A stretch of DNA of 64,000 bases, from the NCBI RefSeq assembly GCF_900215605.1, contig NZ_OBEL01000001.1, forward strand, positions 1 to 64,000, read 5' to 3'. Origin of the DNA: Cohaesibacter gelatinilyticus. GTDB taxonomy: Bacteria > Pseudomonadota > Alphaproteobacteria > Rhizobiales > Cohaesibacteraceae. The notes under the pieces were generated by a model that saw nothing but the letters and a program-made list of their open reading frames with translations, made no database searches and was not told the origin of the DNA. The position numbers were made by a program, and so were the translations under genes. Numbering within the stretch: the stretch's first letter is position 1; each line of letters opens with the position of its first letter. Shown here one piece after another: positions 158 through 5,812 of this stretch.

Positions 158-3001
158 CTATTGTCCATTCAAAAAGATGCCTGATCCCTGCCCCATGAAC
201 GTTCCACTTCCTCCACCTGAAAGCGGTAGTGAAGGTGGATCAACAGGGTCTACCAGGTTGTTGTTCAGCTCTTCCAGTGCGCCTTTTAGTTCTGATTGAA
301 CTTCAGCTGCAGCCGCACCTGTTTCAGATTGAAAACCATTTGAACTGGTGAAATTCTTATCCGCATCTGAACCACCTAACCAAGCCACAGCAATGATGCG
401 GCCTTGATCGTCTCGCAACATATCGGCAGTTGGCGGACTGGCTTTAAAATCTACGGCGATGCACAGGCCAAGCTTATCATCAGGCCCGAAAGGAGGAATG
501 ATGTCTCCCGTTGCTTGATCAAAATAGGTGGCATTTTCCGGAATGCCCAGACCATTGATCACGGTACCTGGCGATACTGACATTTGTGACGTACAGCCTA
601 AATTCGCCGCTTTTGTAACATCGACGACCAGCACACCAGCGATTGGACACTTTCCACCGCCTGCATCAAACTCCTGCTCGGTCGGTTCTATGGCCTCAAA
701 ATCCTTGATACCCTCTTTTAAATCCAAAGATACCAAATTGATGTCATTCGCGAACGGCTCAAGCGCCTTTAGCAACTCGGCATCCAACGCAGCCTGATCT
801 TCAGCGCTAAGTTTTTCAGTTGCATTCGAATTATTATCGACTTTGGTAGTTTCAGTTTTCACGGTTTTTGTAGTTTCAGTTTTCTCTGCTTCCGAGTTCA
901 CTGAATTGCTTTCAATTCCACCGCCATCTTTGAAACGGTCAGCACGCTCTTGTTCCGTCAATTCTCTTGCGGGTGGCGTTTCAGCGCCATCATCTTCCCG
1001 ACTGGATATTTCAATGCCACCAAATGGCAATTCGGCCTTTTCATCCGGACGACTGACGACCTCCATCTTTGGAGCTGTGTCAGCTTGGCTATTTGCAACA
1101 GGTTGATTAGCAGCCGTCTCTTCGGCCTCCATTCGCGTTATGTAGTTGCGGATACGATCGCCTAAACCACGAAACATTTCAGTTTCATCATTCAGCACAT
1201 TTCCCAGAAGTTCGGAACCGGAATCCAGTTCATCGTATTCAGACTCTCCGTAAAAAAGCTCATCGACGATCTCCCGATTAAATTTCTCGTTCGTGTCCAG
1301 GTCCAACTCCACATCCGTTTCGTATTCGTGAAAATTCTTCGCTGTAAAATCAGCGCGCTCTTCGACTTCTTTGATATGAGCGAAAATCTTAGCTTGAGTT
1401 TGAGGGTCAAGCTTTCTCAGATTCCGGGCAAAATACTCCTCCTTGGAAACGTCCCGGTTCTGATCCTTTGCAAATTGTTCCCGACCCGAAGACAACTCCC
1501 GCAGCGTTTTTCTCAGTTTCTGCTTCTCTTCCGACAGATAAGGTTCATAGTCGGTCTCTGACACTTCATCGCCATAACGTGAGGTGCTTTCTGTGGGCAC
1601 GTTTTCTACCAGTTTGGAACTCGTCTCTTCCGATTGTCCCATATGGCTTTTGATTCGATCACCCAGACCTCGGAACGTTTCAGTTTCGTTATTCAATGCA
1701 TTGGCGAGAAGCTCGAAACCGGAATCTAAGGCATCAAGCCCGGAATCCCCAAAAAAGAGCTCATTCGCAATCGCGAGATTCAATTTCTCGTTAGTGTCCA
1801 AGCCTTGTTCCAAATCCACTTCGTAATCGCGGAAAACCCTTGCGATATACCCGCTCCTTTCCTCCACCTCTTTGATGTGATTGAGAATGATATTTTGTAA
1901 ACGAGGGTCCAATTTTTTGAGATTCTTTGCAAAATACTCTTCTTTAGAGACTTCTCGCCCTTGCTCAGCCTCATATTCTTCTCGTCCGGCCGATAAATCG
2001 TGCAGAATATTTTTCAGGCCTTCTTTTGTCTCCAAAAGGGTGGTTTTGCTCGCGGTCCGGAAGGGATCGTCAGACACAAGGTTCAGGCCTAATTGCTCCC
2101 CAACCTTCTCTGCTAACTCTTTGCCTTTCACCAAATAGTCTATGGGGCAATATTGGTCTGCACGTTCTTGATCTCTCGGGGTGAGACTCTCTTTAGACTT
2201 ACATTCAAGGGCATTATATCCAACTTCCGGCAGTAAGTTCTTTCTCAAGATTTGTTTCATTTCGTTGAGAAAACTATTCACGGCATATCGTTGTAATACC
2301 AATGTGGCGCCGACTTTATCCAAATCGACATTGTAGCCACGCAAGGCTTTGTTTCGCGCTCTTTCAAGTTGATATGCAACCCTTTGCGCAGCCGACATCT
2401 GGGCTAATTCTTCTGCGCTTACCGGCTTGTCTAGAGGCGCTGCGTTGAATGCTATGTTCAACTTGCTTTTCCAAGTTGTTGCTCTCTGTTTCCAATCGTA
2501 AATCGCCTGAAAATAGAAACCGTCCAATTCATTCTGCGTGTCATTGACATATTTTGCGGCTGAAAGAACCACCTTCGCACGGTTTTCCCAAGCCCAATCA
2601 AAAGACTCGTTATCGCACCTGTTCTTTCTATCACGCAAAAGCAGGTCTTCAGTGTCTATAAGTTTGAAAAAGCGCAACATATCTTGATTGAGCTGCTTCA
2701 CAATCACGTCGTTTGTTTCTTTGAAAATTTGCTCCGGCTTTATGCCCAGCAATTGCCCCATCTTTCCGAAATCATCTGCCAAAGTATCCTGAAAGAGGTT
2801 GTCTTTCAGGCTGGAAATGCGTTGCTCCAAAAGGAGTACCAATCTTGCTTCGTCAGCATTTTGAACACCTTGGGCAAAAGAAATGGTTGGCGAGGCAAGT
2901 GAGATCACCAGGCTGAGCGCCGTCGCCGTTCGCATGAAACGCTTCAACACAAAACGTGATTTTTTGGAGTGCGATTTTTTAAGTTCAGAATGATTTCTCA
3001 C
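158..3001 (-). CDS. Large secreted protein with an internal ~128-residue duplication
   Basis: The 947-residue product starts with a long basic n-region and a hydrophobic stretch (about residues 24-44) ending in SFAQ, which reads as a Sec signal peptide, so an envelope or secreted location is likely. Residues 326-453 and 493-620 are a clear repeat: both contain VSKEEYFA, a LDP motif, HIKEVEER, LDTNEK, a LDSG motif and FRGLGDRI. The linkers are acidic and coiled-coil-like. Residues 640-760 are charged and low in complexity, and the C-terminus is glycine-rich (SGGGSGTFMGQGSG). I do not recognise a named family. It lies 12 bp downstream of the VWA gene on the same strand and is almost certainly co-transcribed with it, so the two may work together at the cell surface. 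Function unknown. Confidence 0.8.
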   Translation of the reverse strand: MRNHSELKKSHSKKSRFVLKRFMRTATALSLVISLASPTISFAQGVQNADEARLVLLLEQRISSLKDNLFQDTLADDFGKMGQLLGIKPEQIFKETNDVIVKQLNQDMLRFFKLIDTEDLLLRDRKNRCDNESFDWAWENRAKVVLSAAKYVNDTQNELDGFYFQAIYDWKQRATTWKSKLNIAFNAAPLDKPVSAEELAQMSAAQRVAYQLERARNKALRGYNVDLDKVGATLVLQRYAVNSFLNEMKQILRKNLLPEVGYNALECKSKESLTPRDQERADQYCPIDYLVKGKELAEKVGEQLGLNLVSDDPFRTASKTTLLETKEGLKNILHDLSAGREEYEAEQGREVSKEEYFAKNLKKLDPRLQNIILNHIKEVEERSGYIARVFRDYEVDLEQGLDTNEKLNLAIANELFFGDSGLDALDSGFELLANALNNETETFRGLGDRIKSHMGQSEETSSKLVENVPTESTSRYGDEVSETDYEPYLSEEKQKLRKTLRELSSGREQFAKDQNRDVSKEEYFARNLRKLDPQTQAKIFAHIKEVEERADFTAKNFHEYETDVELDLDTNEKFNREIVDELFYGESEYDELDSGSELLGNVLNDETEMFRGLGDRIRNYITRMEAEETAANQPVANSQADTAPKMEVVSRPDEKAELPFGGIEISSREDDGAETPPARELTEQERADRFKDGGGIESNSVNSEAEKTETTKTVKTETTKVDNNSNATEKLSAEDQAALDAELLKALEPFANDINLVSLDLKEGIKDFEAIEPTEQEFDAGGGKCPIAGVLVVDVTKAANLGCTSQMSVSPGTVINGLGIPENATYFDQATGDIIPPFGPDDKLGLCIAVDFKASPPTADMLRDDQGRIIAVAWLGGSDADKNFTSSNGFQSETGAAAAEVQSELKGALEELNNNLVDPVDPPSLPLSGGGSGTFMGQGSGIFLNGQ

Positions 3002-3013
3002 GGTGCATAATCC

Positions 3014-4741
3014 TTATGGAAACTCTATATTCAGTTCACGTATTTCACCGGGAACGACTTCAAACGTGCCGGTTTGGGTGAAATCATCCCCCAGCCGAAC
3101 TCTGAATCGATATGCACCTTGCGGCGCAACGCCTGAATATTTTGTTTGACCGGTGAAACCGATCTCGGTTGCGCTTCCGTTTTCATTCACCCGGTCCAGC
3201 CAAACACCACCAATCGGCAAACCTGATTTTGACGTGATATTATATTCAAAACGGCCAACATTCAGGATATAAGGGCCACTAATGGTTTCACCCGCTTTAA
3301 TTTCGATCGGAAACGTCATGTCAGCTCTGCCAATAACACCGCTTGGCGCGTACTGCACCAGCAAATTATATTTGCCAGGTTTTGCAGCCATTGGCTCATT
3401 TAGACCACCTGAGGCGATCGTAATCTCTGCGCCGGTTTTGATGTCCAACAGGCGATAAAACATGCTACGATTGATCTTACCACCTTTAAACAAAACAACG
3501 TCCGGCTGAACATATCCAATCCGTAGATCAAATTCGTAAATCGTTTCCTCACCAGCGACAATTTCTACCTCTGCAGATTCCAAGATCTGGTTATGTTTTG
3601 CAGTGACCTTATATTTCCCGGCTGGCAACCAAACTTTTCGGTCTTTAATACCGGTTTGCACGATTTGTTCTTGAGCTTCGCCATCAACAATCGGGAAGAA
3701 CTGGAAAAATGCGCCCTGTGCCTGTTTTTTATCATCCGTAGCATAGGCAGACACCACTGCGTTACCTGCGTTGAGATTTAACGCACCAATCTGTTCGCCG
3801 TTTTCATCAATTTCAATATTACCAACTGCAGTAACCACCGTTGAACCGAGGCGAGCGCCAGCTGCGTATTTACCCTTATCGAGCTTGAGCTCATTTTCTG
3901 AAGCAGCCCCAACGCCTCCGTAATAAGGTTTGCCATCCTTATAGACGTCCCAAAATACATCGAGGGGGTCAAGTCGCTCACATGTTTCGCAGAGTTTTGC
4001 ATAAAGATAGGCGCCTTTTGGTGCAACTGCCGGTGTACCGCCACCATCCGATCCCTGTCCACCTCCAGTAGATCCGTTGCCTGCATCATCAGTGCTCTGA
4101 ACTGCGGCCACTGTTTGTGCCAAAGCATCTTTGAGTTCATTTGCATTATTTGCACGGAAGAATTTTCCACCTGTCGCATCGGCTATGCATTGCAAGCTTT
4201 CAGATTCCTCCTTCGTGACATCAAAACCAACAACGTGAACATCAAATCCTGGATTAACAATTCCCAGTGAACGAGCCTGCGCACACGGATCAGCATCACA
4301 GGTCTCCAATCCATCACTCACCAGTACGACTGACGATTTTCCAGTGAAATATTCAACACTAAACGCACCTAAAAACAAAGCTTGGGATAACGGTGTCTTT
4401 CCGCGTGGTGTGATGTTTTGGACATGGTTAATCATTTGCTGTCTGTTGACAGGACCGGGCAATGCTAAAATCTCTATATCTTTACAATCATTTTTCCGAC
4501 GGTGACCATATGCCATCAATCCCATGTTAATGTTGGGGTCCAGATTTGTGATTAAATCTGTCATAACATCTTTGGCGATGGATATTTTTGCCGTGCCATT
4601 GATTTGACCCCACATGGAATTGGAGCCATCAAGCACGAACATAACCTCGTTTGCTTGCTCCGTTTGCTGAGATATTGCAAATCCCACAAAGGAAAGAAGT
4701 GCAATACCGCCAACTAGGGAGGTTTTTAAAAATCTATTCAT
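3014..4741 (-). CDS. Secreted von Willebrand factor A (VWA) domain protein
   Basis: The product is 575 residues with an N-terminal signal sequence (about 1-25, cleavage after FAIS or nearby). A VWA domain spans roughly residues 30-215 and carries the metal-ion-dependent adhesion site DGSNS (D38, S40, S42), so metal-dependent protein binding is likely. A Gly/Ser-rich linker (about 218-235) follows, then three or four beta-rich modules with repeated phrases of the type L-x-x-GKY-x-V and V-x-AGE, similar to carboxypeptidase-regulatory or Ig-like folds. No catalytic motif is visible. It is the first gene of a two-gene unit with the duplicated-domain protein and diverges from the HTH-YARHG gene. 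Role inferred: a surface or periplasmic binding scaffold. Confidence 0.85.
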   Translation of the reverse strand: MNRFLKTSLVGGIALLSFVGFAISQQTEQANEVMFVLDGSNSMWGQINGTAKISIAKDVMTDLITNLDPNINMGLMAYGHRRKNDCKDIEILALPGPVNRQQMINHVQNITPRGKTPLSQALFLGAFSVEYFTGKSSVVLVSDGLETCDADPCAQARSLGIVNPGFDVHVVGFDVTKEESESLQCIADATGGKFFRANNANELKDALAQTVAAVQSTDDAGNGSTGGGQGSDGGGTPAVAPKGAYLYAKLCETCERLDPLDVFWDVYKDGKPYYGGVGAASENELKLDKGKYAAGARLGSTVVTAVGNIEIDENGEQIGALNLNAGNAVVSAYATDDKKQAQGAFFQFFPIVDGEAQEQIVQTGIKDRKVWLPAGKYKVTAKHNQILESAEVEIVAGEETIYEFDLRIGYVQPDVVLFKGGKINRSMFYRLLDIKTGAEITIASGGLNEPMAAKPGKYNLLVQYAPSGVIGRADMTFPIEIKAGETISGPYILNVGRFEYNITSKSGLPIGGVWLDRVNENGSATEIGFTGQTKYSGVAPQGAYRFRVRLGDDFTQTGTFEVVPGEIRELNIEFP

Positions 4742-4826
4742 TTGCCCGCCGCTTTAAATATTCTGTTTTTCACACGATAATTTGATTACGTTACGAAAGG
4801 TTAGCAAGAAAAAATACATTGAGAAA

Positions 4827-4844
4827 TAGTGCGTGCACTATAAT
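4827..4844. promoter_or_regulatory. Dyad and -10-like element between divergent genes
   Basis: The perfect palindrome TAGTGCGTGCACTA (4827-4840) overlaps a TATAAT hexamer (4839-4844) in the 180-bp gap between the VWA gene and the HTH gene. A TTGAGA hexamer lies upstream but with only 14 bp of spacing, so the -35 assignment is weak. Binding and autoregulation by the adjacent HTH protein is an inference from position only. Confidence 0.4.
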
Positions 4845-4921
4845 TTGGAAAGAGAGATTGTTTTCCGGTAATTTCCAATAATTAATTATTTAAAACAGAT
4901 ATTTAGACGGTTATCACGATT

Positions 4922-5756
4922 ATGCTAGACACAGAGAATTTAACCTCATTTGGGAAATATTTTACGACCATCATGCGTGATCGCGGCTTTAAGTCTGATG
5001 AACAATTAGTCCGTAGAGCCATGCAAGTCCAAGAACATCTGACACCACGCGTTAATGTGCAACGTCGGACGATCAACAATTGGCGTAATGATAAAAGCAC
5101 CCCGCGTGATATTTCTGATCAACAATTTCAATTAGTGGCCCAGGCATTGAAATTGTCAGATCAGGAAATCCAAGCAATTGAAAATCTGATTAATGACGAT
5201 GCACCACCACAAAAACAACCAGGGGAGAACGAGCCTCAATTTGTTCAAGATAGGTACAAAATTAATTTCAAATATGTGGGTTTCGGCGGTATCTTTATTT
5301 TGTTTCTTGGTCTGGCTATCATTTTCTTGGTGATGAGCGAAAATCAAACAATCAGCTACGCCGATCAAATTCCACCCACGCAACTTCGAGTTTTTGAAGA
5401 TGGGTTTGTTTTACCTAATTCCGACAATCAAGTTATCAGTGAAATACAGCTTCAAGAATTATCCGGTTGGGAGCTTTACGTTTTGGGAGCTTTACGTTGC
5501 CAGAAATGAGATATTTGCACGCAAAGGTCGCCCTTTTGTCAAAGTGAGTTCCATGTGTTTGCAAAGACATTTCGACAGTTGGTCGAGATTAGAACAAAAT
5601 CCGAATGGCTGGTACAATAAGAAATCCGGAGATGTCCGACTGACAGATTTGGAATATCGAAATGCTGAAATCATCCGCAACTACGAATGCAAAGTAAGAG
5701 GTGAGAGGTGGTCCTGGAAATTCGGACCATGTGCTAAGGTGGATCGCCTGATATGA
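4922..5756 (+). pseudogene. Membrane-anchored HTH protein with YARHG domain, frameshifted by a 16-bp duplication
   Basis: The first frame (4922-5509) codes 195 residues: an XRE-like helix-turn-helix region (about 6-90, with RTINNWRNDKSTPR), a proline-rich linker, one membrane helix (about 117-138), then the start of a YARHG domain. At 5467-5498 a 16-bp unit occurs twice exactly in tandem. The second copy shifts the frame and leads to a stop at 5507-5509. Removing one unit joins GWELYV to ARNEIFARKGRPF and continues to a stop at 5754-5756, giving a complete 272-residue protein whose C-terminus matches the YARHG pattern, ending with the typical E-x-x-N-A-E-I-I-R-N-Y-E. Expected topology is a cytoplasmic DNA-binding domain and a periplasmic YARHG domain, so it could be a one-component membrane sensor. 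No strong ribosome site is seen. It may be a pseudogene, a reversible slippage mutant, or an assembly error. Confidence 0.85.
5467..5498 (+). repeat. Exact 16-bp tandem duplication
   Basis: The unit TTGGGAGCTTTACGTT occupies 5467-5482 and again 5483-5498 with no mismatch. Sixteen is not a multiple of three, so the duplication changes the reading frame exactly inside the YARHG domain of the surrounding gene. Confidence 0.95.
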
Positions 5757-5812
5757 AACCTGGATCCACCTTAAAAGGGCTGCAGCATGGTCCAAAATCC
5801 AGGACCACCTCT
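5704..5812. repeat. Long interrupted palindrome overlapping the 3' end of the HTH-YARHG gene
   Basis: Three nested arms pair: 5704-5718 with 5798-5812 (15 bp, perfect), 5724-5731 with 5786-5793 (8 bp), and 5735-5745 with 5763-5773 (11 bp), leaving a 17-nt loop at 5746-5762. The stop codon of the YARHG frame (5754-5756) lies in the loop. It may be a transcription terminator-like hairpin or a small palindromic mobile element. There is no T-tract directly after the outer stem, only CTTTT. Confidence 0.75.

Follow-up and report, generated by a model that had tools for sequence, protein, structure and literature searches.

Near one end of the window, by which we mean the whole 64,000-nt stretch of Cohaesibacter gelatinilyticus DNA analysed here, lies a gene for a putative membrane-anchored one-component regulator whose reading frame is broken by a short tandem duplication. 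The frame opens at an ATG at 4922, runs to a stop (4922..5509, forward strand) and encodes 195 residues, comprising an HTH-like N-terminus, a hydrophobic segment and a presumed periplasmic stub. Most of a YARHG domain follows out of frame in 85 stop-free, conserved codons (5499..5756, forward strand). Divergent from the regulator is an open frame for a 575-aa VWA-domain protein (3014..4741, reverse strand), past which lies an open frame for a 947-aa protein (158..3001, reverse strand). A 109-nt imperfect inverted repeat, predicted to form a strong hairpin, overlaps the 3' end of the regulator gene (5704..5812).

The break was read directly from the sequence. The 16-bp unit TTGGGAGCTTTACGTT occurs twice without mismatch (copy 1, 5467-5482; copy 2, 5483-5498), and this exact, frame-breaking tandem (5467..5498, forward strand) sits inside the YARHG domain, as the preliminary description of this DNA had stated. 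The two-copy protein was said there to end at residue 195 after LGALRCQK and the single-copy protein to have 272 residues; the ORF and its last residues bear out the former, and the lengths of the two pieces (187 + 85) the latter. As the repeat run in the window is 32 bp, exactly two units, the junction retains no microhomology to have guided the first duplication. Simulation led us to reject chance as the source of the repeat: 20 first-order Markov sequences of 64 kb each, scanned over periods 8-400, contained no exact tandem with a period of at least 12. A local fold at the duplication was also rejected, since 5440-5530 folded no better than shuffled sequences (z -0.5).

In the adjacent frame, the mechanical ORF 5394-5756 matched YARHG (PF13308) at 31.4 bits (cut-off 27), placing the out-of-frame remainder in this domain family; two intact homologues, a paralogue in the same genome and a protein from a Rhizobiaceae MAG, scored 40.1 and 38.8 bits. 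The N-terminus fell outside the Cro/C1-type HTH family and is HTH-like only, with HTH_3 scores of 12.4 bits (window protein) and 14.7 bits (MAG homologue) against a cut-off of 23, and no HTH_3 match listed for the paralogue. This part is conserved, at 48% and 57% identity to the relatives. Of the membrane HTH-YARHG protein proposed in the preliminary description, the YARHG domain and the hydrophobic segment were thus upheld, whereas the HTH assignment was weakened to a resemblance. The top hydrophobic 21-residue segment, a presumed membrane helix, spans residues 119-139 (5276..5338, forward strand; mean hydropathy 2.58), and lies at residues 123-143 in the paralogue and 121-141 in the MAG homologue (mean hydropathy 1.9-2.6), these positions being the best 21-residue window of each protein taken alone rather than a topology prediction. 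With this segment between its DNA-binding-type and sensor parts, the protein has the layout of a membrane-tethered one-component regulator. We infer a cytoplasmic HTH-like part that would bind DNA, one membrane helix and a periplasmic YARHG domain. The protein had no NCBIfam match above cut-off and no PDB sequence match at 0.1. Elsewhere in the genome, a 96-aa ORF (L001:1456-1746; C1:1872761-1873051) gave a third YARHG match (56.9 bits).

Both intact homologues are 271 aa long. The paralogue lies on contig C2 of the same genome (42% identity over residues 7-187), and the MAG homologue shares 44% identity in its best segment. The preliminary description had proposed a comparison with relatives, and in this comparison both (2/2; N part 40-48% identical) held a single copy of the 16-bp segment, with no repeat at the site and neither with the two-copy frame. 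The two-copy form is therefore derived. Over 79 codons, the out-of-frame remainder was 62% and 67% identical to the two intact proteins, with 0.23 and 0.21 nonsynonymous and 0.86 and 0.88 synonymous changes per site; the intact proteins compared with each other gave 65% identity, 0.26 and 0.89, respectively. Several stops occurred in the remaining two frames of this stretch. Because conservation past the break matches that between the intact relatives, the break is recent, in keeping with the earlier claim of a recent event. Synonymous sites are saturated, so this conservation shows only that constraint persisted until recently. An AlphaFold prediction for the MAG homologue, run with three rows, was of low quality (pLDDT 38.8) and therefore left unused.

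The end of the gene departs from its relatives. Both intact homologues carry C-terminal cysteines at 210, 254, 263 and 270; the window remainder has three of these, the third being without a counterpart, and seven residues past the last cysteine versus one in the intact homologues. The inverted repeat overlapping this tail has perfect outer 15 bp and 71% identity to its own reverse complement, and the surrounding 131-nt stretch folds at -65.6 kcal/mol (z -8.4). A terminator-like site (5788-5807) lies in the right arm of the hairpin, in a region holding four such sites versus 1.1 expected. No further copy of the hairpin was found in the genome, and it had no Rfam match at the gathering threshold. 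The earlier assertion that the single-copy protein would carry no other defect was accordingly overstated, given the absent third cysteine, the different end and the inverted repeat across the tail. These tail differences could be neutral for the protein.

The regulator was absent from all 17 other genomes of the genus searched with an alignment model (E up to 0.001; one genome 64% complete). The single protein gave a weak match to a 712-aa frame of one congener (G006; E 5.8e-4, 27% over residues 95-178), which the alignment model did not recover. Wider draws of genomes were searched at E up to 1e-10, with at most six candidates scored per genome, the own genome included and overlap between draws possible. 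At the order level, 3/397 genomes matched, namely the own genome and two with partial matches (model positions 166-257 and 148-262 of 274). The class (1/385) and phylum (1/398) draws each returned the own genome, and no further full-length relative. Plasmids gave no match at 1e-5, and a scan of genome contigs, which may omit records close to the source genome, reduced 37 candidate stretches to one relative. The G+C content of the gene was 0.42 versus 0.50 in a sample of the genome. Without a match in the 17 congeners by the alignment model and AT-richer than the genome sample, the regulator is therefore regarded as accessory. The DUF952 gene just 3' of the cassette was found in 15/17 other congeners. 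At all 15 of these loci, blastn matched window DNA past DUF952 (mostly pyrD; into arsC in three), and at none of them (0/15) did it match cassette DNA, a comparison made at the DNA level over ~1.5 kb each side. In the closest congener, a different gene lies 5' of DUF952.

In both the window and the paralogous cassettes, the regulator gene diverges from a VWA gene; this arrangement recurs in the MAG, where the VWA gene was recognised by eye and is partly masked. Another congener (G008, L056) encodes a near full-length VWA homologue (residues 12-574, 43% identity) and had no regulator match. Comparison of the three upstream regions yielded a shared motif, CGGWAATTTCCA, chosen without a shuffle control and present in each divergent VWA/regulator promoter (window 4742-4921; L015:18832-19194; L004:2836-2985). 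The window bears the operator-like motif CGGTAATTTCCA (4866..4877, forward strand), whose counterpart in the paralogue and the MAG homologue is CGGAAATTTCCA; the 14-bp blocks TCCGGTAATTTCCA, TCCGGAAATTTCCA and TTCGGAAATTTCCA begin 58, 48 and 64 bases 5' of the regulator start codon, respectively. Nine exact CGGWAATTTCCA sites occur in the genome, two before regulator genes and seven inside mechanical ORFs (123-562 aa), and the reversed pattern has no occurrence there. As the seven remaining sites lie inside ORFs, no wider regulon is claimed. Common to 3/3 upstream regions, CGGWAATTTCCA is a candidate and likely operator of the regulator, which would then regulate its own gene. The pair of regulator and VWA genes, together with this operator-like motif, offers a testable lead on what the YARHG domain may do, and the surroundings of the cassette are possibly worth more than the repeat itself.

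The retention of this upstream motif, along with an intact HTH-like part and hydrophobic segment and the conservation of the former, would also suit a truncated protein that works as a variant in its own right, that is, a membrane-tethered, sensorless DNA-binding part acting constitutively at the shared motif. However, the short form occurs in neither relative and constraint on the remainder is unrelaxed, so there is no hint of long use of the short form, and we give this explanation hardly any credence.

To place the duplication in its genomic setting, exact tandems were surveyed in 864 kb (the window plus 40 stretches, ~17% of the 5.2 Mb genome; tandems spanning stretch edges would escape the survey). 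Sixteen rows had a unit of at least 10 bp, and in 5/16 the unit was not divisible by three. By our own reading of the ORFs, the window case alone breaks a gene, a reading that covers units of at least 10 bp; a further 21 rows had 8-bp units, which would shift a frame too. Other tandems whose unit length is not a multiple of three were found with no overlying ORF of 60 aa (L020:717-738), at the stop codon of a 220-aa ORF and covered by an opposite-strand ORF of 126 aa (L028:1861-1893), and inside a frame that stays open (L043:13-32). A 52-bp unit repeated five times begins just 3' of the stop of a 137-aa ORF, with mechanical ORFs of 95 and 77 aa entering it (L017:443-703; C1:64443-64703). This exact unit contains CCCGAAAAGTTGCAGACTTTTCGG, and in the paralogous cassette the interval separating the VWA gene from the regulator gene has a similar string, CCCGAAAAGTTGCAGACTTTT. 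Exact 18-bp units (GGCGGTGGAAACGGCAAT and variants) form several arrays at L033:2925-4340 (C1:386925-388340). The idea of an error-rich or repeat-rich genome was rejected, as the 864 kb gave no sign of either.

An error in assembly or sequencing, or a mutation acquired by the cultured isolate, would leave the remainder conserved, as it is here, and the duplication lies ~5.5 kb from a contig end in an assembly of 15 contigs. Against this, an exact 16-bp doubling is, as a matter of general knowledge, atypical of sequencing errors, and no similar gene-breaking tandem was recognised in the 864 kb. We consider an origin of this kind rather unlikely.

The two-copy form is probably an ordinary recent loss-of-function (or sensor-blind) allele of an accessory membrane regulator and not an evolved switch. 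A short tandem duplication would have arisen recently inside the accessory gene for the membrane-anchored one-component regulator, shifting the frame and thereby cutting off the YARHG sensor domain. Because the same genome also encodes an intact paralogue, itself paired with a VWA gene, the loss may be tolerated. On this reading, signalling would be lost, the paralogue would make the loss bearable and programmed switching would be absent. No decay is seen in the remainder outside the tail, and the allele is therefore possibly too young for a settled loss. On this reading, the locus is an example of a single short duplication silencing an accessory sensor with the remainder still readable.

The preliminary description had instead proposed an on/off switch, reversible by RecA-independent slippage. 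Slippage between the copies would then toggle the YARHG sensor as at a contingency (phase-variation) locus. The perfect copies, the frame-breaking length of the unit and the conserved downstream frame are consistent with this, and reversal of a perfect 16-bp tandem by slippage can in principle occur. However, the repeat is absent from the site in 2/2 intact homologues, the junction is without microhomology, there are just two copies and one known allele, the tail of the protein is altered too, and the surveyed 864 kb held no second gene-breaking exact tandem (unit of at least 10 bp, by our reading). The switch claim was not upheld, and phase variation is judged unlikely. More ambitiously, the locus may represent a little-described one-component system, in which an HTH-like/YARHG regulator reads the envelope and controls itself and the divergent VWA gene via CGGWAATTTCCA, with the sensor of one cassette toggled by a reversible 16-bp duplication; this full proposal strikes us as very unlikely. 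Were the switch true, a reversible duplication would be tied to an envelope-sensing regulator.

Regulators of the CadC type combine a DNA-binding part, a single membrane helix and a periplasmic sensor in one chain. The present regulator would share this three-part layout, by which alone the two are compared, whereas the CadC-type sensor domain is other than YARHG. Such membrane-integrated regulators are named in a survey of YARHG domains. One protein in that survey, combining a YARHG sensor with a zinc ribbon, was put forward as a membrane-tethered transcription factor, and peptidoglycan was the suggested ligand (PMC3355149). The surveyed protein resembles ours in its intracellular DNA-binding-type domain, its membrane helix and the YARHG domain outside; it differs in having a zinc ribbon, where our regulator has an HTH-like N-terminus and a divergent VWA neighbour. 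The term helix-turn-helix is absent from the survey text (PMC3355149).

As for the duplication, tandem-repeat copy number is reported to be phase-variable in Mycobacterium tuberculosis promoters (PMC12817950), and longer repeats are readily lost, with 101-bp tandem repeats deleted without RecA in Escherichia coli (PMC8378479) and 38-bp direct repeats deleted in Mycobacterium smegmatis (PMC3519483), all of which would favour phase variation. The literature consulted on tandem duplication and RecA-independent deletion gave no rate for repeats of only 16 bp. The phcA case (Poussier 2003) is a further lead. Phase variation by spontaneous sequence duplication has been reported for pneumococcal capsule genes (Waite 2001, 2003, cited in PMC4022640), which also speaks for a switch. 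There, as here, a duplication within the coding sequence inactivates it, but phase variation was reported in that system, whereas our locus has a single known allele and its reversal is hypothetical. In lrp of Xenorhabdus nematophila, three spontaneous mutations were tandem duplications of 26-116 bp; phenotypic reversions in eight tested isolates were in no case genetic and phase variation was rejected, the eight being a set that may or may not have included the duplication alleles (PMC6786866). This lack of genetic reversion argues against a switch at our locus. Both cases concern a regulator gene inactivated by a tandem duplication, the Xenorhabdus ones differing in their longer 26-116 bp units, in coming from cultured isolates with known phenotypes and in having been judged not to be phase variation.
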